From Opeltia flavorubescens (Eukaryota > Ascomycota > Lecanoromycetes > Teloschistales > Teloschistaceae): 64,000 nucleotides of DNA. The position numbers and the translations under genes are program-made. Shown here piece by piece: positions 10,241-58,000 of this stretch; the stretch's first letter is position 1, and every line of letters starts with the position of its first letter. The DNA lies in assembly GCA_000442125.1 (NCBI GenBank), contig KE546968.1, positions 1,893,795 to 1,957,794 of the forward strand, read 5' to 3'. Under the pieces are notes generated by a model, which had not been told where the DNA came from, searched no databases, and saw only the letters and a list, made by a program, of their open reading frames with translations.

Positions 10241-10274
10241 TATAAATTACTAAGTTAAATTAAACCACGATCTA

Positions 10275-10496: not shown

Positions 10497-10532
10497 TTAT
10501 AGAAGACTTATTACTATTTTTAGATTTTTAGG

Positions 10533-10593
10533 TAGATTAATAAAAATTTAGCGCTTGCAGTAATACTATAAACGCTAAGCTTTTATTAATCTA
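10533..10593. repeat. 61-bp palindrome with AGTAATACT core, copy A
   Basis: An odd-length palindrome centred on 10563, with no spacer. Twenty-five of 30 arm pairs match and all five mismatches are transitions, the kind RIP creates, so it was probably perfect before decay. The centre reads GCAGTAATACT. A palindrome with the same core lies at the matching internal position of copy B (57872-57920), with similar flanks on both sides. It sits between the right decayed coding part and the lysine-rich frame. In RNA it would fold as a strong hairpin. Its role is unknown: intergenic hairpin, recombination site, or the join of two inverted ends are all possible. Confidence 0.8.
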
Positions 10594-10609
10594 AACTATT
10601 ACTATTATT

Positions 10610-12370
10610 CGAATAGCTTAATATTCCGCTTTAAACTTTAACACCTGTTTATTAAATATTTAGAGCTGGATTTTAATTATAAAGGTCTAGTAATTTATAT
10701 AAATATACCTATCTAGTTATATTATAGTAGCTTTTTTAAAATCTCTAGTACTATTAATTACGTAGCGTTTTATTCGAAGAGCTTTTAATATCTATAATAC
10801 TAAAATAAAATAAGCTCTAGATATAAATAAAACTCTAGGAATTATATATATATTAGTCCAATATCGGGTCTAAAAGCTACTAAACTATTTCTAGCCCGGT
10901 TCTAAAATAATTAGAAATCGAATAGAATAAAATAATCTAATAGACAATTTCTAGATTAATATAATTATAATAGTATTATTTTTAAATAAGATATATAAAC
11001 TAGTAGAAGTCTAGTTAAAGACCTAGAAAAAAAACTTCTAGTAAAATTTCCGATAATTATAAATTGTATAACTAATATTAAAAATTTATTAAAAGGAATT
11101 CTATTAATATTTTTAAAAAAACTTTTAAAAGTATACTAAAATTTAAAATCAATAATAAAAAACTCGAAACTACTAAAAAAAAATACTCGCTAAAAAAAAC
11201 GTCCCGAAAAATTACCGGTATATTTTATCTAAACTTACCTGTAAAATAAGGAATTAATATTACTATTTAAATATAAAATTTTTTTAACTATATATTCTCT
11301 AATATTCAACTAGTAGTAATAAGAATTAAATTATTAGGATTAGCGAATATATAATTTATAAGTACTATATATTAACTATATATAATAAAACTTTTAATTA
11401 AGATAAATATAGGCGTTTTTATTTTATAACTTAACTTCTATATATATCCTCTACCGCGCTAGATAAGTAAAATCGAAGTCCGATATATTAAAATTTAAGA
11501 TACGCACCTATATAACGGTAAAAAAGTAATATTTAGTAAAATAAGATCCCTTATACTATTAAATAGATACTAGGTAGATATTATTACTCGAACTCCGCTT
11601 ATATTATAACGACGTTCTTTTATAAAAAATAGTACGCCGGATATTAAAGTTTATCTACTAGTTAAAAGAATTTACTAATTAATATATCTTTAAAAAAGCA
11701 CGTTACTTGTTTACTATTTATTTTATATATTTTAATACTTATAATATTACTATATACGTTATATCTAATAGTTTTTTTTAGTACTTTATAATTTAATTAT
11801 TAATAATTAGATCGAATTATTTAATCCTAATCGTTTTAAATTTATAAATACGCTCGCTTTACTTATAGAATTATTTAAGGCACGATAGCTTTATATTATT
11901 AACTTTATAGTTTTATTCTAGTATTTATTATTCTATTAATATATATCGATTCGGCTTTTTTAATTATTAAATTAATTAAGACTAAACGACTTAATATTTA
12001 ATATATAATACTTTAACTTTTATTTATTTTAATTTTACTTTAGTTATTTTATTTTATATATATTTACTTTATATTAGTAACTTTAAACCGTATATAACTT
12101 TTAATTTATCCGTTTAGAATTGCTATACTTTTTATTAGATTAATTTTAAATCTAAGTCCTCGATATTTTTTATATTATCTAGAACCTTATATATAATTAT
12201 TTATATAACGCTAAAGGCTATTAAAACGAATACCCGTTTAGCGGTATATATAAAAGAGTATAAAGTTTCTAAAGTTAAAAAACGCGTAATATAGCTAATA
12301 AATATTTTATAATTATAGATATAAAAACTATTAATAAGGAATAAACGTCTAAAATACTATTAATTTGTAA
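10610..12370 (-). pseudogene. Decayed coding region of the repeated element, copy A, upstream half
   Basis: This aligns with copy C at 62160-64000 over its whole length. Good anchors are 11260-11460 with 62990-63180, and 11580-11830 with 63310-63540. The minus-strand frame is the more open one around 11100-11650 and shares short motifs with copy C, such as Tyr-Ile then Lys-Leu (about 11440) and Lys-Phe-Tyr-Ile then Ile-Leu (about 11290). At least one triplet that is a stop in A is a tryptophan codon in C, direct evidence that the stops are RIP products. No domain is recognised. Around 11700-12180 the plus strand is T-rich, giving an A-rich coding strand. Confidence 0.55.
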
Positions 12371-12379
12371 TAGATATAG

Positions 12380-15300
12380 TTAAAATAGCTCTAGATATCT
12401 TTAAAAATAAGATACCTCGAGCGTTTATTTATTAATTTTAAAAGTTATTACTTTTACTAATTATCGCGTAAAATTAATACTTTTAATTTTTTTTAATATT
12501 AAATTACAAACTTATTAAGCCTATTATTATTCTTAAAGGGCCGTAAAAATAAATATAAAAAGTAATATAGCTAAAATTATAAACCGATTTTTTTCTAATA
12601 AAAAAATCCTTTATAATAAATTTATAGTAATTTAAGCGTAAAATCGAGTATAAAAATAAATAAATTAATATTCCTCCTTTTAAATTATCGTCTAGTATAT
12701 TAAACGCTCGATAATATATATAAAGAGTAGTATAAAAGAATTTATAGATAGGTACTTCTTTTTCTAAATATTTAATATTTATATCCGATATTTAATAATT
12801 TAAAAGTATATTAAAATAGATAAATAAATAGATAATTATTTCTAATTTAAAGTTATTACTTTCGATATTAAAAATATATTACTTTTAATCAGCGATTTTA
12901 ATCTATTTTATTTACTTTTAATATTACTTTAAAAAGGTACTAATCTAGTATCGAAACCTTTTTAGTTAGGTCCAGCTTCCTAATATTCTAACGTTTTCAA
13001 AATATAGGAATAATAGGCTATTAAAGCTCTACTTACTATTTAAAAAAAAGAGAACCTAGTTTTTTAGCTAACTAATAAAATTATATAGTTCTTTATTAGA
13101 CTAGTATCCCTATTAAAATTTTAGACGTTAATATAATATATTTATAATTAGAATAATAGATTAAGTTTAAAAGGAAAGAACTTATTATTAGAATATAAGG
13201 CGCTATTAATACTTGCTTCTAATTTACTAGAGTTATAAAAGATTTTAAAGACTATATAATAGATAATAAACTATTAATCCGCTTAGATATTCGACGCTTT
13301 TATATATAGACCGTTTATTTAAAAGTTTCTAAGTTAATTAAATAGCGATATAAAAAAATTAGAGTATATTATATTAAATTAAAAAGTCGGTAAAATAAAA
13401 AAATTATATTTAAAATTATATAAGATAGCTAAGGTTATACTGGAAATAATAGATAGCTAAAATTCGCAAGCGTTTTTTTATATTATTTTAATTATCCGCT
13501 TATAATTTAACCGTCTATTAAATAAAAGTTATAAAAAATTTAAAACCTTTCAAAATAAAAGTTTAACCTACCGGGTAGTTATAAAGGGGTTAAAAACGTT
13601 CTTCCTTTTTTTATTCCCGGATAAAACTATAAAGTATAGATTTTTAATATCCGATTTCTGCTTATATATACTAAATAAATTATAGGAGCTATAGAATTAA
13701 ATTATACTACTATATTACTATTTTTAAGTATATTATAAAAATTATAGGCTAGGTATAAGAAGTCTATTATAATTTAAAAGTCGGTATAATTATATATATT
13801 ATTTTTAAAAACTCTATCCCTTTCTTTAAATATAATTTAAATACTTTAAAAAACCTACCTTCGAATTTAATAATTTAAGAATTTATATTCCCAGCGGAGT
13901 ATAACTCGATTAGAAAAACAATTAAATACTATATATAGGACTTTAAATAAAATACTAGTAGAATAAATATATAAAAGTTATATCGCAGGATATAAAATAT
14001 AATTATAGATTATTAGGGTATATATAATATTATTAAAAAAGAAAATAAAATAAAAGAAGCTTTTAAAGATTTATAAAGCGCGGTGGATATATTAAAAATA
14101 AATATTAATATACCTCCGTTATCGCTATAGGATAAATAATATCGTAATATAAATAGATTTTAAATTAAAAATAAAAGGCTTATATAATTTTTTATATTTT
14201 TTAGACTCTATATTATATTAGATAAGTAATTATTTATAGATCCTATTTAAATAAACTCGATCCCCTTTTAATAATATAAGATAAATTGGAGGATAAAGAG
14301 TAATATTTCTAAATATTTTAAATTTATTATCTAATTGCTAATTATATATTTTAAACTTTATTACAAAAATAATTTTCTATATAATTTATAATCTAGTAGT
14401 ATTTAATACGCTTTAAATATATTTTACTTATTTTATAATTATTTTTAAAAGTTAGGTATTATAAGCGAGTAAAAGAAGAATAATAATTTAAAAAAAATAA
14501 AAAATTTAATTAAAAGAGTAGCGCTCGTAAGAAAATATATCGAGTAAAATATATTAGTAAAAAGTAGGGTAGATATTTATTTAAAAAGATTAGAATAAAA
14601 TAATTATTTTAATATTTAAACCTTTAGGCTTTTAAATTTTAAAGAAGTCTAAGATAGTAATTTAAAAACAATAAAATTTAATATCTAGCCTGCTTTAGAA
14701 ATATAGATAAATATAAAATTAATCTCTTATTTTATATTCTAATTATCTAGTTTAATTAGTATAATATATTTTATCGAGCTATAGGCTTTACCAAAGCTAA
14801 TTAACTATTAATATTTAATTTAAATAAAAACTAGCTTTTAATTAATATTATCGCCTTTAATTACCGAGTATAATATAAAGCTATATTTTCAGTCGGTTTT
14901 AATAGATAGTAATTTTTAATATAATTCCCGCTTTATAGGATTTTTTATAAGTTACAGAAATTATATTAAAATCTATTATTAGCGATAAACTAATATTATT
15001 AAAAATATTAATTATATTCTACCGGATTTTATATTCGGTTTTATATATAAATCTTAATATAAAAAGTTTTAAGCTATTTTATAATAATAAAACCTATAAT
15101 ATTATTTATATATAAATTCTTTAAAATATTCGCTCTAAATAGTCCGCTCTAACCAGTATTATATAGTATAGGCCCCCGAGTATAACGCTAATACGGCTAT
15201 ATATTTATAAGTATTTAAGCCGCTATAATTAGTTTATATCGCTATATAGGTATACTATATAGGTAGGTATATAATTAGAGAATTTATATCTCTTATATAA

Positions 15301-23690: not shown

Positions 23691-23729
23691 ATAGAATAGA
23701 GAATTAATAAACGGGTTAATAATTAAAAG

Positions 23730-24002
23730 ATTATATAAAGGAATAGTAGATAAATTGGCAATTAAGTAATTATATAAAGGAATAATAGATAGATTAGCAA
23801 TTAAGCAATTATATAAAAAAATAATAAATAGATTAGCGATTAAATAACTATATAAAAAAATAATAGATAAATTAATAATTAAATAATTATATAAAAAAAT
23901 AATAGATAAACTAGCGATTAAATAATTATATAAAAGAATAGTAAATAAATTAATAATTAAGTAACTATATAAAAAAATAGTAGATAGACTAGTAATTAAA
24001 AA
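23730..24002 (+). repeat. Seven 39-bp tandem units, coding-type minisatellite
   Basis: Units start at 23730, 23769, 23808, 23847, 23886, 23925 and 23964, each exactly 39 bases, with a degenerate unit before (about 23701-23729) and a partial one after (24003 to about 24025). Thirty-nine is 13 codons. In the plus frame starting at 23731 the second unit (23770-23808) is all sense and reads LYKGIIDRLAIKQ; the others differ from it mainly by transitions. The first two units keep several CA/TG sites, and later units have fewer. The repeat peptide is amphipathic and basic, suggesting a helical repeat domain in a former protein. I do not know which protein. The even 39-bp period with no spacers excludes a CRISPR array. 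Confidence 0.85.
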
Positions 24003-28293: not shown

Positions 28294-28314
28294 ATAATAA
28301 TAATAATAATAATA
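28294..28314. repeat. (ATA)7 microsatellite
   Basis: Seven ATA units without interruption, starting just after TCG. No function is apparent. Confidence 0.85.
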
Positions 28315-28878
28315 GTAACGGAAATAATTATAAAATAGAAATTAAATCGAATTAAGCTAGTATTAAATTAAAAATAGTTAGTTATAGAAATAAAAAAATT
28401 ATTTTCGTTCGATTTCTCTTCTAATAATCTATTTAATTAAAGAAAATCTATTCGCTATTTATATATTTAATTAAAGGCTATTATAATATTTATATAATTA
28501 AAACTCTCGCTACTTCTTTAAATAGTTTTTTATAGGGCCTTTTATATTTTAATAATAGTTATTAAAAGCGCGATCTAATAAAATTATTATTTGTTTATTT
28601 TTTTTTTTAAATATATACGGTATTATTATAAACGCTAGACTATTTTCTTTAAGGCTTTTTCTATTACGCGACGCTAGTATTTAATTATATTAACTCGTTA
28701 ATACTTATTTATATATCGCGTTTATAAGTTTATAAAGTATTTTTTATATAATAGCGGATAGCTTAAAGCTAGGATTTTTCTTAAATTTAGAAATATTTTT
28801 AGATATAGTATTATAAATCGAGGCGTTTTATATTAGAATAATTCTCTTATTAATATAAATTAGAAATTTAAAGAAAAA

Positions 28879-28886
28879 GGGGGGGG
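28879..28886. repeat. Run of eight G
   Basis: Eight G in a row, notable in DNA of about 20% GC. GG pairs are not RIP targets unless preceded by T, so G runs can persist. It may also mark a sequencing-prone homopolymer. Confidence 0.85.
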
Positions 28887-31800: not shown

Positions 31801-34603
31801 TAGATTAAATCGCTTATATTATTAGCTATTAAATAAAAATAATAATTTTTTTATTTAAATATTCTATTAATTATTTTTTAATTTATTTAATAATAGTTAT
31901 ACTTTTAATAAAAAGTAGTATTTTTTAAATAATACGGATCTAGCGAAGCGAATTTTTAAACGGCCGATACTTTTTTTATAAATAAATTAAATTATTAAAT
32001 AATATTTTATTAGTATTAATATTATAACGAAACTTATAAATATTATTATAAAATATATTTAAAGTATATTTAATATTATATTATATATAATTCGCTTTAC
32101 CTTTTTTATTATTTATAATCTAATAAGCTATAATTAAAAGGTATTCCTAATAATATAAATATATATAATTTATTAGATATAGAATTGTTAATTAAGTACT
32201 ATACCTGAAATAAATAATATATTTAAAAAATTCTATAATATTTCGATTATTAATAAACGAGCGTAAGTATTTTTAAAATATCTAAAATAATTTTATTTAT
32301 AGTTTAAAATAGATTTATTTTTTTTTTTTTATTTTTAATTTAGAATATTTTATATCCGGTTATTTATTATCCGCTTTATTATCGATTAATCTATAAAATA
32401 TAAAAATTAGCTTTTTACTCGCAGGTTCGTCTCGAATAAAGGCCAAAAAATACTAAATATTATTTATATTAAAAATATCTTATAGGATATACTATACTAA
32501 AAATAAATAGGTAGTTATTTATTAGAAATAGGTTATTATAGCTATTATAATATTATATAAACTATCGCCTATACTTTTTTTTACTATAATATTAACTAAC
32601 CTAGCGTACCGATACTATATATCCCGGTAGAAAAGGTTTTTAATTTTTATACTTTCTAGTAATACAGTATTAATATAGTACTTTAATAATTTAATAATAA
32701 GCGTTTTTAATATTTTAATTTAGTATATTCGCTAAATTATAATCGAGGCTAGTTAATTTTAAAGCCGGCTTATATAATTCGAGTTATTTTTTTTATAAAA
32801 GTTTTTTTTAAAGCTGCTTAAAATAGTTAAAAAATATAGCTATAGAAATTTAAAATATATATATAAGTCTTCGATCCTATTTATAATTAATATTCTAGAG
32901 ATTATCTATTAATATATCCTCTTAAAGATTTAATAAGCGTTTAATATTTATATAGTATAATTTTTAATCTTTTATATTTTATTAAATATAATTCGGTAGA
33001 AATAAAATTAATAAAAAAAGTTATATTATAATATCTATTAAGTTCTATTTATAGTCTAGCTATCTTTATTTCGCTTCTATAAATTAAATAAGATTTTAAC
33101 TTATTTATATATCGTTAAAATAATATCTATTTTTTAAAAAAAAGATTCGATTTTAGAGCTTTATAATCTCGCGTTTTTATAATATAATAATATTATTTTA
33201 AAAATTCCGGGGGTAATATAAAAATTTAACTCTCGCTTCTATTATTTAATTAGAGATATAATATAAATAATTAATATATTTTTATATATATTCTTAGCTA
33301 GTATTCGATTTATAGCTATTATAATATATATTATAACTATTTTATTAAATTTTATTATATCGGCTAATAGACTTTTATAAAGTTCTTCCGATTTTAATTC
33401 TCGCTTTTATATTGCCGCTATCTTTAATAGCTAATAATTGAATAATCGAGCTTTTATACTTTTAATATACTATCTTCTAGTTTTATACTTCGTTACTCTA
33501 GGGTTAAAACTGGCCGCTACCTCCTATAATTATAACTTCTCTTTTATAAATTCGGCGCGCTAAATTTTAAGCGTACCGAATATAAATAAATTAATATATT
33601 TTTATTTTATTCCTTTATAAAGTATTAATAAAAAAAAAATTTTTTAATTTTTATCTACTTTTTTAATAGCGTTATACTCTAGTTAAATTTCTAATAAATA
33701 CTCGAAACGTTTAATAATATTTATTTAAAGTAAAAATAATAACGGCTAAATATATTTTTTAAAAAGTATAATAGATATATTTATCTAATTATTATTAATT
33801 ATAGTATTTAGAAATAATTAAAAAAGGTAAAATTTTAAATAATTTGGATTAAAAAGAAATTTAATAAAAATCTTAATAATTTTATAATAGAAAAATAAAG
33901 TTAATAATATTAAATAATAGTAATATAGCTACTAATTAATATAATAACTAGTAGTAATAGTATTACTAGTAAATATAAAATTTAATACCGTTTTATAGGT
34001 TTTAGATAGCGATTATAACTTTACTAGCTAAAGCTACTAAAATTATAGCTTAACTTTAATATTTAATAAGATATATTAATATTTATTTTTAATTACTACT
34101 ATATACTATTTAAAATAAAGCTTGGCGTAATATATATATATAAATAAAAAATACTTATTATAGATCCTAATAGAAAAATTAATCTATTAAATATTATAAA
34201 AGCCGTTAATAATTTACTATTAATTAAAGGAGTTGTAGTTATATTAATTATTTATTAATAAAATATCTGGATTATTTATTTATTTATTTTTGTTTTTAAT
34301 TTAGTAATAATAATAGGATTATAGATTTATTATATAGGATTATAGCTCTCGATATTAATTAAATAGAGCTCTGGTATTAAAAGGGTTAAGTAGTAAATAA
34401 ATAGCCGTTTTATAGTTATATAAAAAGTTAAAGAGTTATAGATTAAATAGGTGGTATATATAAACTTCTAGCGATCGAAATAATAAGTAGAATTTATAGC
34501 TAATATCGAGTAAATAATTAAAAAGAGACCTTTTTAAAATTATTAATTATTATATAATTTATAAAAACCGATAAGTTTTTTAAATAAAATATAGATTAAA
34601 ATA

Positions 34604-34618
34604 TATAGTAATACTATA
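34604..34618. repeat. 15-bp palindrome with AGTAATACT core (weak family member)
   Basis: TATAGTAATACTATA is a perfect odd palindrome centred on 34611, the same core as the longer palindromes at 10563, 43202 and 57896. Beyond the 15 bases the arms match only patchily and some mismatches are transversions. The right flank (ACTATAAACG) resembles the right arm in copy A. It may be a more decayed member of the same family or a chance AT palindrome. Confidence 0.35.
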
Positions 34619-36436
34619 AACGTTTATATATACTATAAAAAGACTAGATCGGTATTAGAATATAAAATAGAAAATATTCTAATCGGCCGAGTAAAATTTT
34701 ATATAATCTATTATAGATTATTCTAATAATTAATCGAATTAAATTGAAAAAAAAAAAATTAGATTAAATAGATTTACGGCTACTATTATTTAGTATTATA
34801 TTATTTATCGTTTAAATAATACTTGTAGTTTTTTAAATAAGAACTATTATCTAGATTAAGGCGGTAATTAATAAAAAGGAAAAAGTTAGAATTAGATAGT
34901 AATTATAGGAGAACGAGTATTTTAAAAAGTCGAAAATAGAAAAAAGAAAAAAACGCGCGATATTTACTATAAGTTAGTATTTAGCGAGTAAAACTTTTAA
35001 TCTTTAAATTCTAAACTTTTTTAAATTAATAAGATAAACGAATTTATTATATTTAATAAATAGTAGAAGCGGTAAATATATATTTTTAATAGTACTCGGC
35101 TTTTTTTATATTCTCTATAGGCCCTAATTTTATTTTAGTTAAGGTATTAGATTTTTTATTCTTTTAATATAATATAGAATTAACTATTAACTTTATTTTA
35201 CCTCCGATTTTATACCGTATAATATATAATAAAATAATAGAAAAAGTAAAAAAGCGATATAATATAAAATAAAATAAAAATTAAAACGTAAAATTTTCGC
35301 TTTAACTTTTTATAGTAAATAATTTACTATTACTTTAATAATATAATATATATTTAATTAACAATTATTAATATAAATTTATTAATATTCTATTTATAAT
35401 TATATTACTACCTTTATTTTTATACTTTTTAGTTTATTCGAGCTAATAGAGTAGTTGGCTGAATTTAAAATAAACGTTATCCTATATAAAAAAAATATAT
35501 ACTTTTTCTCTCTAAAATTCTAAATAGTCGAGTTTATTAATTTAAATAAAAGAAATATATATTTAACCGATATTAAATTTATATAATTTATAAAGCTTCT
35601 AGCTTAATATAATATTACTGTAAATAGAATTAACCGCTTTTTAATATATAAAAATAAAGGAAATAATATACTTTATATTATAATCGACCAGCGACTTTTC
35701 TAGAATATAATAAATAATTATTAGAAAAAAAATTTTAATTTTATAAAGTTATATATTAAAAACGCCGTTATTTTTAATAAATATTAAATTTAATAATAAT
35801 TTATAAACCTTTAATTAAATAGTAGCCGATTAATAAAAAGTATATATATTATATTCTCTACTTTTAACCGCCGTTAATCTCTTTAATAGCTAATAAAAGA
35901 GTTTATTATTTCGAATAAAGCAATTTTCGATTAATAATAAAAAACGTAAAAGTATATTTTTGTTTTTTTTATCCACGCCTGCTTTTCTAAAAATCGTCTC
36001 TTTTTAAAGAGAGAGTTAACTCGAATCCCTATACTAGATTAAAGTATAAGCGGGATAAAAAAAGCGATTAAAATTAGCCTGCTATTAGCGGTAAAAAAGT
36101 ATAATAATTATTATTATATAGCGTATTAAATAGTTATAACAATAGTATAAATAGCGTTTATCTATATAATAAAGAGGATAAGAAAAACGAAAAAGATAAA
36201 AAGGTTAAAAAGGATAAATAGAATAAATAAAACGGAAATTATATTAATATAAATAAAAATAAGGGCTAATAACTATAAATCTTTCTTCCTACTTTACTAC
36301 CGATTGTTTTCGAATCGGTTTAGCTAAATATAATAAAATAAATATTATTATAAATATATTATTTTATAAGTATATCTATAATAGTATATTTAAAAAGGTT
36401 AAAAATTTCGCTAGTTTTAATATTAGTAATAGGTTT

Positions 36437-36437
36437 N
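36437..36437. other. Ambiguous base (N)
   Basis: The only non-ACGT base in the window, inside AGGTTTNGCT. It is a base-call ambiguity, not a scaffold gap. Confidence 0.95.
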
Positions 36438-39400
36438 GCTTTTCGATTTCTAATATAATAAGATATATTAAAGATTACTAGTAGCTAGTAATTTTTCTCG
36501 CGATATATTACTAGAATAGCAGTTATAGGCGGGTTAGAATATTAATTAACGATATTTCTAAATTAAAAAAAGTAGCTAGTCCTCGCTTTTTATTATTAAA
36601 TATCCGGCTGATTATATTCCGGCTAAACTTATATAGCGATCGGTATAATAATCCTTAAAATTATATTTTATAAAAGGTAGCTATTTATTAATATAAAATA
36701 GCGTAATCTACTTTTAAAGCTTTATTATTATTAGCAAAATATTTCGCCCGGTTTTAAATACTCGAGAAGCTAGAATATTAAATAATAGTACTTATATAAA
36801 CTATTTTCGTTTTTTTATTAAATACGCTCTTTTAAAAGGATAAATTTAATATATATTTAACTAAATAATATAATCTAATAATTCGAAAAGCTAATTAAAA
36901 TTATTATTTTTATAAAGCTAGAGGTTATATTATATATTAAATATATAACTATTACGGACCTTTAATATATCTTTAATAAAAATAGAAATTTAAAATTAAT
37001 TAAATATAATAAAAACAAAATTTCGCCTATAAATAATATATTAATTATTATTTTAATTATTTAATAATTATTTAAATCCTTTTAAAACGTTATAAAATAT
37101 AATAAAATTTTTAAAATTTTAAAAGGTTCGAGGAGAGAATTAGTAAATAAAAAAATAATTTATTACTATATTTATCCGGGTCTAGCGATTATAAATAAGA
37201 GCTATATTATTAAAAAAGAAAAAGTAGGACCGTTTAAATACCTTAAAATAATAAAAAAGGCGTATTCTAATCGACGGCTATAGTTTATTATATTTTCTAA
37301 AACAATATTCGACTTTTTTTTTATAGATATTCTAATACTAATAAATATCGTAGGCTTTCCGGAGTAGAAGAATCCCGGTTATATATACTATAATTTTATA
37401 CCGTCGAGATTACGCGCTATAATAAAGATTATTTAGATAAGTAGATTAAACTTAAAAAATATAAAAGTAAAATATATATTTAATTAAGCTATTTAGGCGT
37501 TTAATTAAAAACTACCGAATTTTTTTATTTATTAATAAAAGAAGAGTATATAATTTAATAAACTACTATTTAAACTTTCTCCTTTAATTAATATAACCGA
37601 AAAGGTATTATTAATATTTATATAGCTATAAAGTATTAATACTACTACGAATAAATAAAAAAAAAATACTAAACGCTAGTTTAAGTCGGCGAAAAAAAAA
37701 TAATAAAAAACCGTAGAATATTACGGATAATATTTAGCCGGGTTTTTTAAATTAAACGCCGATATAGTTTTAAAAAGTTTATTAGCTCGCCGGATATAAC
37801 TATTTTATATATTACTATCTTTAGTAAAACGCGTAAATAAATATAGCTAGGAGATATAAATAAATATAAATACGGAAAAGTACTACTATAATAAGTTAAA
37901 GATAATAAAAAGCGGTTATCTATTAGATTAAAAGTAAGCTCGGTTTAAATAAACTCCGAAGTTTAAATAAGTTATAGAAATCCTAAAATACTATTTTTAA
38001 TATCTAGCGCTAATTATATTTAATTTTCTAGAAGTATATTTTATAATTTAGAAGGTAAGTTTTCCTTTTAAATTAAATTATCTAGCCTAATTTTTCTATT
38101 ATAGTACCTCCAGAAATACGAGACTCTATACTATCGACTAGTATTCTATAATATATTAAAAGGAAAGATTATTATATATATATTTTAATTAGGAGAAGAT
38201 AAATAAAGTATTTCTCTCGCCTTTAACTAAAAATTAGATATATTATTTAAAACGGTTTATAAAATAGCTATTAGCTTTATACTAACCTAAATAATTTTAA
38301 TTATTATACTAGAGCCTATATACGATAACTAGATTTAATAATAGATTTTATTTAAGATATTACGATATAGTTAAATAAACGATATTTTCTTCTATATACT
38401 AATTAGTAACGTACCGTTGAAAACGTTAATAAATAAAAAGCAACTTTTTAAAGAAATCTTTATTAAAGATATATTTTTAATTATAAAAAATTAAAAAGAA
38501 TTAATAAAAAATATTTTTATTGAAATTAGAAATTAAAATCTTAAAAAAAATTATTTAAAAAAAACGCTATTTTTATAAATACAGTACTATAATATTATAT
38601 CTTTATATATACTAGTTATATCCTATATACGCTATTTCCGATATAGAAATACTAATCGCTTTTTTTTGTATTATAACTAGCTAACTAGCTTTTAAAATAG
38701 CCGTAATAAACTAAATATATTGATTTTAACGGAATTTATTTTAAATAGTTATTTTTTCTATTATAAATTCTATAAATAGTTGTTTATAGTATTTTTATTT
38801 TAGTAATTAAATATATCTTAGAAATAGATTGTTTAAATAACTATTTAATAACGATATATAATTATATTATTAAATTCTCTAGTAAAATCTTTATAAACTC
38901 TCTATATTTATATATAGGTAAATTTTTACTAAAATATTAAACCTTTATAGTTTATATTAAACCGTTTTTAATTAAAAAGACTATTTTATTATATATAATA
39001 ATACCGTATACGTTTTAAAGTTATTTATATTATATATTTCGAGTATATTAATAATTTTAACCCGGTAAAAAAAATTATAAAAAGTTTAAATATATTAAAA
39101 TATATTCTTCTAATATATTTCGGCTAAATTATTTTATAGTCTAAAATAGGGGCTTTAATAGGAATAAACTATATATTACTCTAATTTTATAAAAATTTTA
39201 TAGTATTTATAAGTTAGAATTATATTTAGATAATTAAATTAGTAAATTTTATATTTAGAATTAGCGAGTATTAAATTATAAGTTTAAAATTCGCGGTATC
39301 TAGATAACTATTTTATTTCTAGTTATTTATAGTATTAAAAAGTTTTATACTTTCTATATACTATTATAGTATATATCTACTTATATATATTAAAATTAGG

Positions 39401-39517
39401 TAAAAATAAAGCTATTTATTCGTATATAAATACTTATTCTAGTAGATTAGACTATTATATAGGATATAATTATATAAAATATATCTAATTAAACTATATA
39501 GAGCTCGCTAGCGTTTT

Positions 39518-39589
39518 TCTCTGGTAGGCGTTATAAAAAAACGGGGTAATCAACTTCTAAACCCCTATTTTTAATATTATAACCAGGGA
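39518..39589. repeat. 72-bp imperfect hairpin, GC-richer and partly RIP-escaped
   Basis: The outer arms TCTCTGGT (39518-39525) and ACCAGGGA (39582-39589) pair with one transition mismatch. The inner arms GGGG (39543-39546) and CCCC (39562-39565) pair within A-rich and T-rich flanks. The apical loop is about 15 bases. The segment keeps TG and CA steps, unlike its surroundings. It could be a small foldback element or an RNA-type structure; it does not fit a tRNA, having no B-box-like GGTTC in the right place. Confidence 0.5.
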
Positions 39590-39599
39590 TAAAATATAA

Positions 39600-42500: not shown

Positions 42501-45500
42501 TAGTAAATAATATTATAACTCGCTTTTTACGCTATTATTATATAAGAAATTGTATAAAGATTAGAAAAAATATAAACCGAATCTTTAAATATTTATATAC
42601 TCCTCGTTTCCGTTTTTAATAGGAAAAACCGAGGATATTAATTCTAAAGCTATAGTTATAAAATAGATTTTATAGTAAAAATAAAATAGAAAAAAAATAA
42701 AAAATAGATATTAAAAGTTTTTCTATAATAGGAATCTATACTATTATTAGTAAATTTTATATAGTAATTAATATAAATATTTAAAAAAAAAAAAAAACTA
42801 GATTTTATAGCTAAAAGCTCTATAATATAATATATTTTTTATATTTTTTTCTAGTCGCTTTAATCTACCGCCGTCCCTATTTTTAATTATTTTCTAAAAC
42901 GGTATTTATATAAAAACCGCCTATAGCTAAAGTTATATTTACTACTTTTAATTAGCGCTAGACGCGTATTTTTTATCTTTTAGCGCTTACTACCGCTCTG
43001 GAAATAAATAAACTATTTTCGATTTTTTTTTATCGATTATTTTAAAGGATTTTATTATATAAAATAAATTTCCTATATAAAACTATATTATAGATAGCGG
43101 AATAATATTTTATATATTTCGTTAATAACGGTATTATAGTTATATAAAAGGAAAAAAATATATTTAATTTTATAAAAATAATAGGCTTAGTATATACAGT
43201 AATACTATATACACTAAACCTATATTATTTAATTAATATAAATAACCTATTATATAATTAAAAATAAATATTCTAATTATTTTATATATTATTATTATTT
43301 TTAGTTTATCGCGTATACTAATAGTATTTATATAAAACCTTCGAACTGCTTTTTTATATTATACTAGATAATTTATTTAATATATTATAAAATATTCGCG
43401 TTTATAACTTTATAAATATAATTAGATTATATAAATTTTATAACTTATAAATAAAAGCGTAACTAATATTCAATCGATATATTTACTCTAATAGAATTTA
43501 AATAATAAAAAACTAAATATAATTTTCTAAAAATCTAATTTTTTTTTATAAATATTATCGGTTATTAAAATCTATAAATAAAATTATTAAATAAATAACG
43601 CGTTAAAATTTAAAGTCTAAATTAAAAGAATATTTTATCTATTAATATTTTTAATTTTTTTAATCGATTTATAATTTAATAAAAAACTATTATATCGATT
43701 ATATAAAAATTATAAAATAAATAAAATATCGTTTTTAATAAATTTTTATTTATATCGCCGAGTCTACTTTAAAATAAATCTATAGAATTTTTTTTTTTAT
43801 ATTTTTTTAACTATTTATAACGGAGTTATTTTAACTTTTTCGCGATAAACTTTCGATTTTTAAAAAAATAAAATATTCTTTTTAATATTTTATTTACGCG
43901 GTTCCTCGTTAAAATTATAATTAAAAAAAAATAAAACGAATTTTATCCGGAATAAAATATAAATCTAATAATAGTAGTTATATATATAATCTACCTAGCT
44001 ATTTTTATTCGAAGTATATAGTTTAGTTAAACTAGAAATAAATAGCAATTTTATAGTTTTAATATACCTTTATATCTATTATATTTTAAATTTATTTTCC
44101 TATTATTAAAAATTAAGCTATTCGGCCGTAGCCGTATAAAGGTTTTTATTTTAAAAATAAGATAATTTATTATTATATATTTTATTATTAATTGTTTATA
44201 ATTATCTTTAAACCGGTTATTAATAAAAAAAAAACTTTTATAATATAAATTACTCTTTTATTAATAGCTTATAATACGCTATAGCCGGTGTTTAAACTAT
44301 TTATATCTAGTTTTTACTAGCTATTTAAAATCCCACGACTATTAGTTTCCGGGATAATTTTAAACGAGATAAATATAGTTTAAATCTTAAAATCTATAAC
44401 GGTAAATAATACAATTAATAGTTAGTATATTATTAAAATTTTTAAAAATAGATTTACGCTTTATATAATAGATTTTATATCCTTTATTATTTATAAATTT
44501 AACGCGTGCGACTAGTATATTAATATCTAGGCCGTTTTCTATTCTATAAGATATAGTTTAATTAATAGGATACTAAGTTTTAATAATATTATTTAAAAAT
44601 ATATCCGGGTATTATAAAAAACGGAATTTAAAAATAAATCGCTATAAATTATAATTTAACTCGGCCTAGTTATAGAAATATATTAGATAATTTACGCTAA
44701 AAACGATATAAAATTTTATAAAGTTAAAATATAAAAATAGTATAATTAAAAATAAAGCGATACTTTAATTAAAACGATATCCTAATTATAAAAATAGCCC
44801 GGTTACGTATATTCGGTTTTATAATTCTCTAGAATATTTTAAACGGATATAATTAAAAATTAATATAAATAATTAAAACTAGGTTATTTAATAGGAAAAC
44901 CTAATTATAAAATATTATTAGCGTATATTTAGGTTATTATTTTTTTTTAGATACTTTCAGGTAATTTTTATATTTTTTTTTAAACCTTTAAATATAGTTT
45001 ATAAAAAAATAGATAATTTTTTATTTAAAAAAAATATAAACCGCTATTTTAAAAATTTAAAATACTTTTAAAAAAATTAGCTACTATTAATAAAATAAAA
45101 ATTAATAAACTATTAGTCTTTTATTTAAAAAAATAAATTTTAATTATTAAATTTATATAAATATTTTAGTTAGCTTTATTTATTATTTTTAATTCGATAT
45201 TAAAAATTTTATAAATTTAATTACCTATAAAATTTAATTATATATTTTTTCTTTTAGCTAGTAGTACCAGCGTTAATAAAAACTAGATATATATTTAGTA
45301 AATATACTTAAATTAAGGATATATTTAAAAATTATCGCTTATCCCGCGCGAGTAGATATATTATAATAATAGCTAAAAGTTTTTAAATAATAGAAATACC
45401 TATTAATTCGATATTAATATCTTTACCGTTTTTCTAAAAACTTGAATTCTCCAGTTTTAATACGGGTATATAGTTATAATCTAATATTTAAATATATTTC

Positions 45501-48500: not shown

Positions 48501-51500
48501 ACTATTAAAAAAAATAAAAAAATTTCTTTCTATTTTTAATAATAATAATATCGTAATTTCTATTAGATTTTATATTACGGTTTATACTTTTATTCTTTAC
48601 TTTTTAAAGGATTAATAAATTAATTTATAGTTATATAGTTTAATATCAAAGTAGTTATTTAAAACTATAGTTAATAATTTTTATTATAATTTAAAATTTT
48701 ACTTTTTATAAAATAAAATTAGTATATAGTTTAAAATTATACTATTAACGTCTTATAGTTAAATTAATAGCGTTAGCTGTATTAATAGATAAAAATATAT
48801 TTAATCTATAAAATTAATAATTATATTAGTAACTAGATATAAATAAAAAAATTACTTTTATTTAAAAACCTATACTATTTATTATTCCGTCGGGTTAATT
48901 ATAAAGTTTATCTATTATAATATTAAATAGTATATACTTAAAGGTTTATTACTAACCGATATTATTATTAATATAATATAAGTAATTTCTATTATTTACT
49001 TTATTCTATCTGTAAAAGCTAATAATTTATTATTAATTATTATTAAAATAGAGTCTCGTTTATTTATCCTATAATAATATCGAATATATTACCTATTAAA
49101 ATATTATATCGTTTATAGCTGGACGATATTAAAAAAAAATCCTTTTATTTATAATTTAAAGTTTTAATCGATATAAAAACTATTTAAAAACTTTAATTTT
49201 TATAATTATATTAATAAAAAAATATATTATTATTAATTTTAAATAATATTCTAATAATAAAAACTTAATTATAAATAAAATTTTTTTTTTAATAATCTAC
49301 CCTATACCCTTTAAAAGCTAGCGCAGTATTAGTCGATTATTTTTTTTTATTCTAGATCGGCTTTTATATTTAAGTCGATTAGGGTTTTAAATTCTAATCG
49401 ACTTTTATTATCGATATTAATTAGATCGAATATATAGTATAAATCTTTTTATTATTATTATATAGTCTCTCGTTTAATAAGTTTAAATCTTAATTTATAT
49501 CTATTTAATAATTTTACTACCGCGAGAAAAAATAAAGAATTTAATTTAAACCGAAGACTTTTAATTCGGCTGCCTATATTTTATAACTATTCTACTTTAG
49601 ATTATTAGTACTTTAGAATAGTTATTAAAAAGACCCTATATATTTTTTTATAACGGGTAGTATTTCGAGATTTATTTATTTTTATATATATACTTTTAAC
49701 CTAGGATAAAGCTATAAATTAGCTTAGAATAATATTTTTTATTAGCCGCGAGATAGGTAGGCTATTTATTCTATAATATTATAATTAAATACTATAGTAT
49801 ATTTAATCCGAATTATATATAGCGCTAGAAAAAACTATTTATATTTTAATAATATTAATTTCTACTTTTATTTATATAGAATCTATTAAAAGGCTTTTTT
49901 AATTATTATATTATACTATTTTACTTTATTTTTATTAAAGCTATATTACTAATAATATTTATTTTTAATCGATATTTTATTCTATAATTATAACTTTATT
50001 TTTTAGCTCTTCGAAATTATATAAAATAGGTACCGTTAAAAATTATTCGACTAATTTATTAATTTTTAATAATTAAACTAATTAATTAACCGTTTATAAA
50101 TTTTTATCGAATTTTTATATTATACGGGTATTCTTTTTATTTAAAGTTTTTATATTATAGTCAACCGATAGTTTATTTTTACTTTTATAAAAATATATTA
50201 TAAGCTATAATATAGATTTTTCGTCTATTAATCTAGTTCTATCTATTAGTTTCTATTAACTAACCTTTTTATATAATAAACCGCTTATATAAATAAATTT
50301 TAATTATCTACTACTTTTTTTTCTACCGGGTAATTTATTTTTTATATTAGCTTCGGATTTTATAGAGCTATTAACGAGCTAGAAAAGAATTAATTCTAGA
50401 TTTAATATAGTATAATTATAAACTAAAGCTATAGAGTCGAAAAATAAGTATAAACCCGCGACCTCTAATAATTAGCCGTAAACTAAATAAGATATTATAA
50501 TTAAAAATAATCTCGTTAAATTACTCCCTAATTAGCGCGATAATAATCTCGCGGTATTTTATCCGTTAAAAAGCCCGAATAAAGTAAAAAAAAAGTAATT
50601 AGTAATTATAATAACAGCTTCAAGTAATAATTATACTACTAATATAATAATATAGCTATTTAGATTAAAGATAAATATAAATAAAATAATAATAAATTAG
50701 GAATTATTATCTACAAATTTTTAGCTTATCTCGATCGGATAGGTCTTCTAAAAAAGAATCGCCCGTTATTAGGATAAATTATAGGAGAAAAGTAAAAATT
50801 AGATATAAAATATTTTAAAATAGAAAATTTATACTAATTATAAAATAAAGTATAAAAATTATAATAATCTAAAAAAAATTTTTAATACTATTATCCGCGG
50901 TTTTTAGCAGCTAATTTTTATATTATATATTATACGCTATTATATTAATTATAATAGTTATAATTATAATCTAATAAAAAAATCGTATAAAATATCTTTA
51001 TTAAAAAAGCCTTATACGGTATTACTAGATATTTTATAAAATATAGTATAAAAATAGTTCCTTAATAAAGAGATTTATTATATATATCGCTTTTAAATAT
51101 AAAAAATAAACGTTATTTTTAATCGGCTGCCTAGAAGATTAATTATTAGGGAATCTTATTAGATTATAGTCGAAAATAAAAACTAAACTTTCTATAACTA
51201 CCTTATAATTTATTATTAACTAAAATAATATAAAATATAGATATTACGCGGAATATTAATAGAAAAATATAAATTTATTAGTATTATTATTAAAAATATT
51301 ACTCTAAAATACTTTATAACAATTTAGTTAAACGAATTTAAAGGACTTTTATATTTTAATACTATATAAAAATATAACGCGGAAAAAATTTAATAGTAAA
51401 AGTTTATTAAATAAACGAAATTAATTTTTTTATTTATTTTCGAATATATTTTAAACAGTTTATAATTTATAAAAAATAAATATACTATAAACTTTCGATT

Positions 51501-54500
51501 AAATTATTATATAATAAATTTTTTTTATTAAAGCCGCTATATCTATAAATAAAATAAAAGAAATTTAGAATATATTATTTTAATAACTCGAACCTTTAGC
51601 TTTTATAATTATTCTATTTATCTTTTTTTTTTTTTTTATATAAAAGCTAATATTCTTATAGTTTTTTTTAATTTTTAATTAAATTCGGTTAGTTTTAATT
51701 AATCTTTAATAAATATAACGAGCTTATTATAAAATTTTTAAAAATTATTTAATTTTTTAATTATTTTTTTTACTACTAGAAATTATAGTTTATATCGCCG
51801 ATTTATTTAAAATTTTCTATAATATTAAATTTTAATAAAAAGGGTCGTTCCGGCTAATTCGGTTTTATAAATTTTATATTTTATTATACTTTTAACTAAT
51901 ATTTTATATTAGCTTGCTCGTTTAAAAGAACGGATTTTATTTTATATATAAAATCGACTTTTTTTTAAAAATAATAAAATTATAACGCGGCGTTTTTTAA
52001 TTTAAAGTTTTCTTTATTAAATAATCTCGAATCTTTTTTAATAAAATATAAAAGGATTTTATTAATAAACGGTTTATTAATTTTTATAATTTATTTTAGA
52101 TAAAGAATAGGTCTATAAAAACAATAGTAGAAATATATAGGTTCGTTATTCTAAATATTAGAAGTAAATTCTATAATTTTTTTTTTTTATAATCGAGAAT
52201 AGGTAGAGTATTAAATATATAGCGAATTTTTATTAAGGCTAGTTATAGTAGGGTATAAAGCGATAAAAATTGGATCGCCGATAATTACTAGATAAATAGA
52301 ATATAGCTATAATACTTCTTCTTTTATTTACTTTTATTCGATCGAGAGTAATTATTTATATTTAGAAAAACCTATTAAATATAAAATAAGTTCTTTCCCA
52401 ATTAGATTAGATATTTAAAAAGCCGTACTTTTATAAAACAGTCGGCCGTTAAAATAATATAGATAAACGCTTCGTTAAACTATCTCGGTTTAAAATAAAA
52501 TAAATATTATATAAAACGGGAATTTATAAATTAAATTACTTTAATATAGATTTTATTTTATTTTTTTTTATAGTATAAAGTTTAAAATAAATTCTTTACT
52601 ATAGATTTAATATATCGAAAAATATAAAAAGATTATTAAATATTTTTAAAAGAGTAATAATCGCGCGAGTAATTAGCTATAATTTAATATATCGACTATT
52701 ATAAAATAATTAGCTAAAATTAAAAAAATATAATTAATCTATTTATACTCGTTTTATTTTCTATTTAAATCGTTACGGATATATTATATAATAATATCTT
52801 AGGTTCGATCGACTTAATCCCCGTTTAATAAATTTTAATTTTTTATTATATATATTTGAAAGATTCGAATAATATTTAGTAATAAGCTTTATATTTATTT
52901 TAGCAGATAGTTATAGACTACTAGACCTATATATATTTTTTTATTTATCTATAATAATATATTTACTAAGTAGTTTCGACCGTTTATCTAGTATATATCC
53001 TATTCTAATAATATATCGTCGGTTTTTTTATAGCCCTAAATTATCCGTAATATATATATATTAATTTAAAAAATCGGTAGGAGTATTTTTAAATTAGTAG
53101 AACTCTAGAATTAAAAATTTTTAATAGATAGTTTATCTAATAAAAATTTCGGGCTTTTGTTTTTATAATTCCTTTTTATTTCTTTAATATAGTCGAAAAT
53201 TAAACTATAATATTAATTTTTTATTTTTTTCCGTTTATAATACTCTTTTAATTATAAATCGGGTATATTAATTAAATATAATAATATTATTTATATTTTA
53301 AAATACTATTAGCGCTATATATAATTTTTTAACCGTAGCTTTTCGGCTAATTATATACAATATTTATTATTTTAATACCGTAATATAAATTTTAAATTTT
53401 AACGGCTTTTTTTATAATCCCGATATACTAGTATAACGGAATTTTATAAAAGGTTTACTCGTAGTATAATTTAAATTTATTAGAAATTTTATAGTAAACT
53501 ATTCTAATAATAATAGATTTTTAAATAGGTTTCGTTTCGATAAAACTCTAGACCGTAAAATTATCTAAAGTTTTAGCGGCGTAGCCGGAGAAAAAAGCTA
53601 TTTAAAAATCTATAAACTATAAAAAGTCGCTATTTTTTATAGCTAAAAAACTCTATATCCGAGGCTAATAAAAGAAAATAAAAGATAGGCTAAATATAAT
53701 AAATTCTTTAATTAGAAAGTTTAGAATTTATACTATTTATTTATTAAATTTAAAAAAATTTTTATATTAAAAGAAAAAAAAATAAATAAATAAAATTATA
53801 AATAAAAAACGGAATTTAGTACTCGCGATAAAAAGTATTTTAATTATCTTTAATATCTATTTATCAATATTTTTAAATATAATTATACTATAATTATTTC
53901 GAAATTAATAACTAGTATATTAAACTATATTAAGCTCGATTCGATCTAATTTTATTTTGTTAATACTACTATTATTTTATATAAATAAATTATCCTATAA
54001 TAGCTATCCCGCGAAATTAATTCTTCTATTATTAATAAAGTAAAAAGCTGCGTAATTTTATAATAAAAATAATTTTAATATCTATTAATATATTTTTATT
54101 ATAATATCGGTTGCTATTTTTAAAAAATAAAATTATATAAGCTAATTAATTTTATATATTATAATTTATTTAATTCTATTTTATAATTTTAAACTAATTT
54201 ATTTAAATTTATATTATATCTATATTAAATAGTTTTTAATAATAGATTTTTTTATTTTTTAATTCGCGTTTAAAACGATACTCGCTGAATTAAATAATAG
54301 TAAAATATATTTAAATAAAATCAGATAGGGTTTTTTTACTCGCGTTAATATTAATATTAACTATATATTAAGCAAAACCGCTACTACTTTTTTTTTCCCG
54401 ATATAATAGACTATAGGAAAAACCTCTATTATTATATAAATAATCCCAAGCTAAATAATATTATAAGTCGTCCCGCTATTAGCCTATCTAGTAATAATTA

Positions 54501-54760
54501 GAATAGTTTCAGCCCTATAATTAGAGGTATATCTATAGTATAAACGAGCGGGGTAAATAAATAATTATTTAGTAGATAGAGCGAGCCCGCCGATATAGAA
54601 ATATTTAAAAATTTTAGAAATAAAAATAGTTAAACTTTAATTATAAAGTTAATAAATCTTTTATAATATTAATAGTAAAACTATTATAAATTTAATTGAG
54701 TTCGAAAATCGATATTTAATAATTAGTAATACTAATAACTCCGTGATTATTTTTATATTT
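39600..54760. other. Decayed repeat DNA, no recognisable gene
   Basis: Very AT-rich, with sampled lines down to about 8% GC near 45000. No frame stays open and no family could be assigned. Apart from the palindrome at 43181-43223, I see only short simple-sequence runs. The stretch 45000-49500 is one of the most T-rich parts of the plus strand. Confidence 0.5.
43181..43223. repeat. 43-bp palindrome with CAGTAATACT core
   Basis: An odd palindrome centred on 43202, with no spacer. Eighteen of 21 arm pairs match in the central 41 bases and the three mismatches are all transitions. The outermost A/T pair also matches. It shares CAGTAATACTAT with the palindrome in copy A, and its arms (ATACACTAAACC) resemble those of copies A and B. 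The flanking DNA did not align clearly with the repeated element in either orientation. It may be an isolated member of the palindrome family or the only legible trace of a further copy. Confidence 0.75.
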
Positions 54761-54764
54761 ATTC

Positions 54765-54792
<28 letters not shown>
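54765..54792. repeat. Run of 28 T
   Basis: An uninterrupted T28, the longest homopolymer noticed. About 240 bases to its right copy B begins, whose coding strand is minus, so on that strand the run is a poly(A) lying downstream of the element. That would fit a poly(A)-tailed retroposon on the minus strand, but copy A has no such run at the matching place, so chance expansion is as likely. Nearby bases keep a few TG/CA steps (GTGATT, GACAAA). Confidence 0.85.
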
Positions 54793-54795
<3 letters not shown>

Positions 54796-55004
54796 TACGA
54801 TAATATAGAATTTCGTTATAAATTATAGCTACTATCGAATACTCGAGAAACTAAGACAAATAGAATAAAAATTGAGTTTTTATCGGTTTATAGCTATTAA
54901 TAATCTTTATATATAATTAAAAAAAATATAGAAAAAAATATTTCGAGAATTTGTATAAAATACGATAAATTATATAAAAGTATTTTATTTATATTTTTCG
55001 ACCG

Positions 55005-58000
55005 TATAAATATAATACTAATTATTATAGCGTTAATCTAGCTATAAACGCAATAAATAGTCTATTACTTTTTTTTATTTTCTATTTTAGGTATACCGAT
55101 CGTTATATTAGTAGAATTTTCCGCCAAATTTTACTAAATTAAATTAGGTTTAACGTACTACTTTATTTACGCGGGCACGTCGTCGATTTTATCCGAAGTA
55201 TATAATTTTAACGATTTTAATATACGTCTCGCCTATATTTATAAATTTAAACGTTAAAACTATATCGTTTTTTATATAAATAATAAAAGGAGTAATATTC
55301 GAATATTATATATTTATAATAGGTAGATTATATAAAATTTTTTTTCCTATCCTTCTATTTAACTACTTTATTTTACGGTTTTTATAATCTAGCTTTAATA
55401 GAAACCCTTTAAATTTCTAGCGCGCTAGAAAACCGTAATATCGAGATACTAAAGCTTTTTAATATATAGGTTAGAGTAGTAATAAAAAATCTTTTTCGTT
55501 AATATAAACTAAAAAATATCTAGTTTATCCCTTTAATATTATATATATATATTTTTTCTAATATAAAAAATTTTATTAAAATAGGTTTAATAATTTATAC
55601 TATTTATTATAAAACGTCCTAATTCCTATAACTCTAGTTAAAGAAGGACTTTAATATTAATCTAATAGCCTATAAATAATTAATAATAAATAAAAGCTAA
55701 TTATAAATAATATAGTTTATCTATAGCCCCGAATAATATATTTCTAGTTAGGAATCGTTCAACTAGCCCGCTAGCGGTTTCGAGTTATTTAAACGGTTAA
55801 AATTAGTCGGGAACGCGTATAAAAATTCTAATATAAAAGTAAAAATTAATAGTATAAAATTAAAAAAATTATATTTTAAATCCGGAATTTATTAAAAATC
55901 TTTCCTTTAAATTTAAAACCGGAGCTTTTTAATTATAATAATAAAATATACCGGAGCCTTTATATAGTTTATTAATATAATAGCTTTTATAACCTCTTTT
56001 TTAATATATTAAACGAAATATAATTAATTAATATAATAGGAAATTTATTTAATAAAGCTAAAGTATTATTTAATATTATAACAAGAGCTTCCGAAATAAA
56101 TAACGAAAATATTTAATAAATATAATAAAAGGAATAAATAAATAAAATAATTTATAGACGAGGTTTAAATAGGAAATTAGACTATAATAATCGGAAATTA
56201 ATATATAATTTACCTAAAAGAAACGTCTAGAAAAGTAGGGCTGGAACTAGTCGTAAAAAAATCGTCTTTAGTAATTTAAAAGGTAGTAAAAAAAAACGAT
56301 CTCCGGTAAATAACTATAAAAATTATAATAAAATTTTATTTCCGCGGAAATCTAAATATTTATATTATAAAACTATATTTAATATAATTAAAGGATATAT
56401 AAAAAATATTTTTTAAATATAATCTAGTATATAATCTAGTAGAATATAAAGGAAAAAATAATAAATTTAAAATAAAGGTACTATATTTAATAATAGTCTA
56501 TTTATTATATATAATTAAACGAAGATAAGTATATATAATTATAATACTAGTTTTAATATATAAAAAAACTCGAGCTAGGTTATAATATAATATAAATAGC
56601 TAAACTTTTATTAATTATTCTATTTATTAATTAAAAGGTAGTTAAAAAAGTTTATAAAAATTATTATATTCTAGACTACTATACTAAAATAAACGGTAAT
56701 TATCTAATTTTAATTATTATTTTTTTATTATTTAGTAAAATAATATATTAAATAAATTAGTATTTATTATTTAAATACCGAAAATTAATTTTATATCCTT
56801 TTATCTTTTTTTAAATAGAAGTATATTTATATAAAATAGCTATAAAATAAAATTTATATAAAAAACGTATTAATAAAAAATAAGAATTGTATATTTTATA
56901 TATTTAAATATATAGATTCCTTTTAAATATATTCTATAGGAATATAATTTATATAAATAATATTATAAGCCTTTAATATTTAGTTTTATTTTTAACTACT
57001 ATATATAAAAACGAATAATATACCCCTATTATAATTAATTTATAAAATTTTAACTATATCTAATAATTACTAGAAATATAAAGAAAACTATAATATTATC
57101 TTTATAAAGAATAAATAGTACTTTAATAGCGGCTATAGAATTATAAATAAAAAACCGTTTTTTATCCGGCTAATATATATTAATATTATTTATAAATAAT
57201 TTAAATTAATAATAACTTTTATTATTAATTAAAAGCTAACTTTAAAATTAAATAAAAAAGAAAAAAATAATAAATTCTATTTTTCGAGCGCTGCTATTAC
57301 CTAATCTATATATTCGATAAAAGAAAGGTTAAATTTTATAAAATATTTTTATAAATAGGCTAACGTTTAAATAAATATCTTTTAGTTCTAGTATTAATAA
57401 TTAATCGATTTTAAATTATATAAAATATCTATTATTTTTTTAATAAAGCTAAAATATTTATAATAATTTTAAAAATATATTTTAATTTTATATTTAAATA
57501 GGATTAGTTAAATTTAATTTTTAAAGAGTTAATCCTTAAAATCGGCCTCTCGAATATATTTCTATAATAATCTATATAATTTATATTTAATATTACTAGG
57601 ATTCGAATTAAAAAAGAAAATATTTTTAATAAAAATAAAAAAAATAGAAAAAGCGTTTTAAAAAATCGGTTCTAGTTATTTTTTAATAAATTAATTCTTT
57701 TAATCGGTTAACTATATATAATTATAGTAGATATAATATTAGTATAGATTTTGTATAATATTTAATATCGAGTAATAGATTAATATCGTTTTTTTTCGCT
57801 AAAAATATAATATAAATAATTCTATTTAATTAATATCTATAAATAAATAAATAAGATTTATTAAACGGATATATTAAAGTTTAATATATATAGTAATACT
57901 ATATATACCAAGCTTTAATACCTATTAACTGCAGTTATTATCCGAAAATTTTACTATTTTATTCTAAATTATATAGATCGATTAGTAGATAAATTTTAAG

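Follow-up and report, generated by a model that had tools for sequence, protein, structure and literature searches.

The stretch of DNA analysed here (the window) comprises 64,000 nucleotides of contig KE546968.1 of the ascomycete Opeltia flavorubescens (C4:1893795-1957794; genome of 34.4 Mb in 23 contigs) and carries members of a family of odd palindromes centred on GTAATAC. Positions without a contig name are those of the window, negative values being C4 positions to the left of its start. The window has a GC content of 13 to 21% (2 kb steps) and has CA and TG at 0.09 and 0.07 of expectation; its list of open reading frames contains none of 120 codons. It is part of an AT-rich block of ~100 kb, decayed by repeat-induced point mutation (RIP), that terminates in telomere repeats: TTAGGG repeats close C4 2.4 kb beyond the window end, and telomere repeats also open C15 and C19. 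From the RIP marks and the TTAGGG repeats, we interpret the block as a chromosome end that RIP has decayed in a filamentous fungus. RIP yields transitions only (C-to-T, G-to-A), and comparisons were therefore limited to a purine/pyrimidine code, which is blind to this decay.

Results

Three palindromes in the window, A1, B1 and C, are perfect in the purine/pyrimidine code (30/30, 25/25 and 21/21 arm pairs) and share the core AGTAATACT (Table 1). In ordinary letters 25/30, 21/25 and 18/21 of the pairs are identical; the remaining five, four and three are transitions, and none is a transversion. All three lie in one orientation on one chromosome arm. A sequence-only reading of this DNA had listed two odd palindromes of 61 and 49 bp with a common core and transition-only mismatches. 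This description holds for A1 and B1, the earlier limits of the latter (57872-57920) being contained in those given here, but the list overlooked C and five decayed relatives.

The palindromes lie far above chance in both kinds of comparison that the earlier reading had called for, with random and with RIP-simulated DNA. Counting palindromes that are perfect in the purine/pyrimidine code, with a spacer of 0 or 1 and arms of at least 20, we found three in the window, where 40 Markov copies averaged 0.075, and five in 99,270 bases of the block, where 60 Markov copies averaged 0.15 and none held more than 2. These five are A1, B1, C, a further member F centred at -10178, and one unrelated palindrome at -18717. 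RIP-simulated shuffled DNA gave three in total in 30 sequences of 62 kb, with a longest arm of 24, and 62 kb of real gene-rich neighbouring DNA held no palindrome with arms of at least 18. A general repeat finder ranked B1 fifteenth, with A1 absent, among the 25 listed of 88 inverted repeats. The unrelated odd palindrome (-18758 to -18676) has arms of 41, with 33 identical pairs, 8 transitions and no transversions. Another inverted structure, at -3905 to -3804, is an imperfect palindrome of 102 bases (86% in purine/pyrimidine code) that edges a segment common to C15.

Table 1. Palindromes, repeat copies and associated features; positions without a contig name are window coordinates
Feature	Position	Strand	Remarks
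Palindrome A1	10533..10593	+	arms of 30; centre A at 10563; core AGTAATACT
Palindrome B1	57871..57921	+	arms of 25; centre 57896; core AGTAATACT
Palindrome C	43181..43223	+	arms of 21; centre 43202; core AGTAATACT
A2, decayed relative in copy A	11731..11763	-	centre 11747; scan score 40
B2, decayed relative in copy B, counterpart of A2	63439..63471	-	centre 63455; scan score 41
D, decayed relative	28607..28639	-	centre 28623; score 39; control mean 0.005 per block copy at 39 or more
E, decayed relative	34595..34627	+	centre 34611; score 38; control mean 0.055 at 38 or more
H, decayed relative, weakest in window	38985..39017	+	centre 39001; score 37; control mean 0.25 at 37 or more
F	C4:1883616		found by genome pattern
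G	C15:9465		found by genome pattern
C19 left	C19:9218		found by genome pattern
C19 right	C19:755428		found by genome pattern
Copy A, decayed subtelomeric unit	105..14463	+	limits approximate; purine/pyrimidine self-alignment to copy B
Copy B	50150..64000, on to ~66087 past window	+	limits approximate; purine/pyrimidine self-alignment to copy A
Right flank of A1	10594..10773	+	common with B1; 80/101 first purine/pyrimidine matches
Right flank of B1	57927..58104	+	common with A1; 80/101 first purine/pyrimidine matches
13-base direct repeat	C15:9408 and 10747; C19:755485 and 754392; C4 window -10133 and -11763		near both ends of F unit

Members of the family

We define the motif as an odd palindrome of 33 to 61 bp centred on GTAATAC. 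When the block was scanned tolerantly, nine places scored at least 37, whereas 200 Markov copies averaged 0.25; the nine are A1, B1, C and F together with the decayed relatives A2, B2, D, E and H. None of the 200 control copies reached the 40 scored by A2, whose flanks are homologous to those of B2 on both sides. A further place, K, at -3287, has 17 perfect pairs around the core AGTAATACC but a scan score of only 35, a level at which controls average 2.0; it is therefore counted as a probable member. With K, a copy on C15 (G) and two on C19, the family comes to 13 members.

RIP-tolerant patterns run over the genome gave totals of 17 and 31, where the backward control gave 7 and 17, and located the four members beyond the window that are marked in Table 1. 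Across the 34.4 Mb, the tolerant patterns detected relatives with good pairing only in this block and at C15 left, C19 left and C19 right, the last with one mismatch. A pattern that leaves the inner arm free matched 65 places, six of which are perfectly paired in the inner arm; this set consists of A1, B1, C, F, G and C19 left and no others. For the remaining 59, at a probability of 2^-7 apiece, chance would predict about 0.5 perfect cases. Eight more of the 65, B2 included, have one inner mismatch. Thus the genome check suggested in the sequence-only reading, a search for palindromes with this centre, placed the fully paired ones only in chromosome-end blocks, as far as pattern searches go. 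Of the matches to the RIP-tolerant patterns, those on C5, C7 and at C13:551353 were set aside as another common sequence with unpaired arms, and that at C2:82876 as not centred on the core; those on C6, C11, C13:319474, C14 and C21 were judged from their printed letters only.

Outside this genome, a stricter pattern had no match in a prokaryote genome collection. Its one match in viral contigs lay in a long frame of a phage-like-looking contig, with unmatched inner arms, and was rejected. Literature searches on AGTAATACT or AGTATTACT yielded nothing evidently relevant among the matches listed, and those on subtelomeres, palindromes, RIP, cruciforms and AT-rich DNA yielded nothing evidently describing the motif among the matches listed.

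The units that carry the motif

A1 and B1 lie in two repeat copies, A and B. Megablast of the window against itself detected neither copy, whereas the purine/pyrimidine comparison recovered both. Copy B ends about 190 bases short of the telomere repeats. Transversions amount to 18.7% of 5,483 aligned bases, which marks A and B as old copies. The right flanks of A1 and B1 agree at a level (80/101) that was reached by 0 of 19,813 random pairs, and their local alignment exceeds all 288 and all 250 control pairs; this homology stops ~210 bases from the centre. The left flanks match at the chance value of 51/101, and gapped alignment agrees. Thus the palindrome does sit at the same internal place in both copies, where it forms the left edge of a ~240-base common block, but the alignable flanks previously described exist on the right side only.

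F, G, C19 left and C19 right share flanks and represent a second unit, the F unit. Its palindrome-bearing part occurs in four places (C4 right, C15 left, C19 left and C19 right), in all of which the motif is present and has the same orientation to the contig end. In C19 right the common segment begins ~70 bases left of the palindrome centre and extends ~1.2 kb. A 13-base direct repeat is found near both unit ends in all three copies checked (C19 right, C15 and C4) and delimits a segment of about 1.1 to 1.6 kb, which in the C15 copy contains a 19-base tandem array. The earlier proposal that a hairpin-capable part is tied to a repeated element is borne out in both A/B copies and in 4/4 F-unit places; the roles suggested with it (recombinase site, replication hairpin, RNA hairpin) are candidates. 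C19 right is 34 kb away from the end of its contig and F ~77 kb from the C4 telomere; "chromosome end" therefore refers to end blocks and implies no fixed distance.

Sequence from the left end of C19 (C19:1-3600, next to the telomere) recurs inside the C4 block at -22273 to -25862, mostly at 91 to 98% purine/pyrimidine identity, which indicates that chromosomes have exchanged end segments. What looked like an interstitial telomere within the C4 block proved to be an alignment artefact, telomere-repeat runs being found only at the contig end. Two other repeats were observed: a dispersed one of ~290 bases directly left of G (C15:9087-9387), with at least 20 further genome places (40 of 185 candidates scored), and a tandem array of a 39-base repeat in about 7.7 copies at window positions 23716-24019.

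The units appear to be non-coding. None of the 40 best coding-like segments of the block (purine/pyrimidine hexamers, scores of at least 15.7) lies in copy A; ten null sequences peak at 14 to 22, and the test is a weak one. Transversions between A and B show no clear codon periodicity (nothing in 21 of 23 blocks, chi-square 7.0 and 7.7 in two). Pfam gave no match in the six frames of copy A at E up to 1, nor in 9/12 frames of the C15 unit at E up to 0.1, negatives that are limited by decay and leave copy B and the rest of the window outside the scan. As a yardstick, RVT_1 is still detectable in RIP-scarred copies in the genome (41 of 43 matches carry stops), none of the 43 being inside the block. 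No Helicase_C match was listed in the block, and in the window there was no Rfam match at gathering scores and no tRNA. The location "between two reading frames" that had been considered for the hairpin is not upheld, since copy A is without a listed coding-like segment, Pfam match or clear codon periodicity. Copy B has coding-like scores of 25 and 24 on two strands at 65383-65943, past the window, against the null range of 14 to 22, and a score of 20.5, inside the null maxima, at 59655-60854; as the model scores both strands of real genes too, we attach no conclusion to these scores. Elsewhere, C5:1949944-1950126 holds a Helicase_C remnant with three stops, 1.6 kb from the right contig end, which is perhaps a RIP-decayed telomere-linked helicase.

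Conservation and folding of the arms

Among A1, B1, C and F, transversion differences in the inner 21 arm positions occur only at positions 8, 10, 20 and 21, and each occurs in both arms. In a fairer test, which takes A1 as given, the probability that B1 would stay perfect over 21 pairs is 0.013 at the A/B transversion rate and 0.007 at the local rate. The flanks of C and F have no firm homology to the A/B flanks or to each other; the right flanks of B1 and C ranked in the top 1% of 288 controls, but a RIP-aware matrix did not repeat this (38% of 250 controls as high). In terms of sequence, the motif is therefore better kept than its surroundings. It occurs in at least three contexts with non-aligning flanks. 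Homology has an edge at the palindrome's left side in the A/B comparison and ~44 bases outside the palindrome in C19 right, and by a rough estimate each edge is expected by chance in some percent of cases. Folding was computed as single-stranded DNA against shuffles for A1, B1, C, G, A2 and B2; it far outdid the shuffles for A1 (z -4.3 and -4.9 on the two strands) and B1 (z -5.9).

Discussion

The transition-only mismatches of A1, B1, C and F, their varied contexts, their location in end blocks and their two-sided changes lead us to read the palindromes as a hairpin motif. Our leading interpretation, held tentatively and at somewhat short of even confidence, is that the motif belongs to subtelomeric repeat units, AT-rich and apparently non-coding, of a filamentous fungus with active RIP, and that its arms were kept matched by template switching. 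The motif would have folded back when single-stranded at chromosome ends, during replication or end resection; template switching between the arms, together perhaps with some selection on the core, would have kept them matched, and RIP and related decay would have scarred the units afterwards. As units moved from one chromosome end to another, the hairpin might even have marked the point at which they broke and were joined. The creation and repair of hairpin stems by template switching has been described (PMC8794818), and in a budding-yeast cdc13 mutant inverted repeats are reported to fold back within long single-stranded DNA (PMC10164571). The two-sided stem changes are alike in the first of these descriptions and here, but there they concern RNA genes and here decayed subtelomeric DNA.

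Several observations weigh against this interpretation. Members were chosen as palindromes, such that the perfection of their arms is partly selected for and the two-sidedness of the changes partly circular. The free-arm pattern gave 73 matches in its backward control, and it is only pairing, not the pattern total, that distinguishes the family. A2, B2, D, E and H hold one to three transversion mismatches in 16 pairs, and C19 right carries one beside the centre; arm mending is therefore not universal. The edge effect was noticed afterwards, in two comparisons. Folding of C is weak (z -2.3, 6/200 shuffles as good), neither G (z -2.0) nor A2 folds as a single hairpin, A2 having no stable fold, and B2 (z -1.3) is not significant. 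Finally, template switching alone fails to explain the same core and inner arm in unrelated flanks.

An alternative is a structured site bound by a protein of a mobile or subtelomeric element, such as a recombinase, resolvase or nuclease and not a rolling-circle origin, with selection by the element's protein for core and pairing until RIP killed the element. The GTAATAC core and inner arm kept amid unrelated flanks would suit such a site, as would the 13-base direct repeats that bound the F-unit segment and the array inside its C15 copy. However, Pfam found no domain in the frames of copy A and the C15 unit that were scanned, and RVT_1, which survives in scarred form in the genome, is missing from the block; we regard the element site as unlikely, yet deserving of real weight. 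We give less credence to the palindrome itself as a miniature foldback insertion, a tiny mobile element inserted repeatedly. Unrelated flanks around the same motif, and well-paired and decayed copies side by side, would be natural for such an element, but none of five palindromes (A1, B1, C, F and K) has a flanking direct repeat of two bases or more, in a test that covered the palindrome borders and not longer elements around them. Moreover, most contexts lie in one block instead of in RIP blocks across the genome, and querying with the DNA around H and C turned up no copy with a matching empty site. This makes the insertion improbable. An RNA hairpin, formed within a transcript of the unit or as its terminator, would fit the stem-loop shape of A1 and B1, although that shape was computed as DNA; the missing coding trace in copy A and the negative Rfam search in the window leave it with a slim chance.

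Helitrons have a short hairpin followed by a CTRR end at their 3' side and go with a Rep/helicase. A rolling-circle origin of a CRESS-DNA-like (circular Rep-encoding single-stranded DNA) or other HUH replicon would place the minus-strand tip NANTATTAC at a stem-loop apex, where it is present exactly in 7/13 members (A1, B1, C, F, G, A2 and E). In the description of CRESS-DNA origins, this sequence at the apex is the canonical mark of most such genomes (PMC6186406). By our own estimate the tip of a random odd palindrome shows this 9-mer in roughly 0.5% of cases. However, C19 left, C19 right and B2 lack it, and K, D and H carry a G at a place where the motif requires A; this G is probably original, because decay of the RIP type converts G to A but not A to G. 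No Rep was found here: Viral_Rep (PF02407) had no match, in a search that was silent in control genomes as well, and the 33 matches to PF00910, which we take to be ordinary ATPases, have no internal stops and none is in the block. Copy A also exceeds the under-6-kb genomes described in PMC6186406, although the F segment does not. We consider such an origin highly improbable. Chance palindromes in AT-rich RIP-decayed DNA are barely conceivable: the low GC content of the window would help to produce them, but the counts against Markov and RIP simulations and the common core speak strongly against it.

The units are of a kind that resembles known subtelomeric AT-rich repeats, with the hairpin motif as an added feature. 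The STE classes of Aspergillus flavus are described as AT-rich, subtelomeric, present at several chromosome ends, without a discernible transposon and of constant orientation to the telomere (PMC9910759). The units studied here are likewise AT-rich, with at least 70% AT over at least 2 kb, and subtelomeric, judging from the TTAGGG end of C4 and the telomere repeats at the start of C15 and C19; they have no transposon domain in the frames scanned, as far as decay permits, and constant orientation is seen in 4/4 F units and also in A1, B1 and C. In contrast, the main text of PMC9910759 contains neither "palindrom" nor "hairpin", and the likeness is one of description. The X26 telomere-associated RecQ helicase repeat of Stagonospora nodorum is also a RIP-scarred subtelomeric repeat family as described (PMC3017866), but no helicase domain was found here in copy A or in 9/12 C15-unit frames, and the block is without a listed Helicase_C match.

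One possibility that goes further, and that we consider a long shot, is that the palindromes represent a structured DNA element with a dedicated role in fungal subtelomeres. It would be a long hairpin whose tip, GTAATAC, is fixed and which compensatory change has upheld in several unrelated end repeats, used as a break, switch or nicking site for end-to-end copying of units, perhaps by a relic rolling-circle (HUH) system. Although loss is the expected fate of long palindromes without a spacer, this family persists at chromosome ends with its arms matched under heavy decay. The purine/pyrimidine code recovers copy homology that is barely visible to ordinary DNA comparison, and because it separates RIP marks, which are transitions, from transversions, the palindrome family offers a natural test of arm mending by template switching versus selection.

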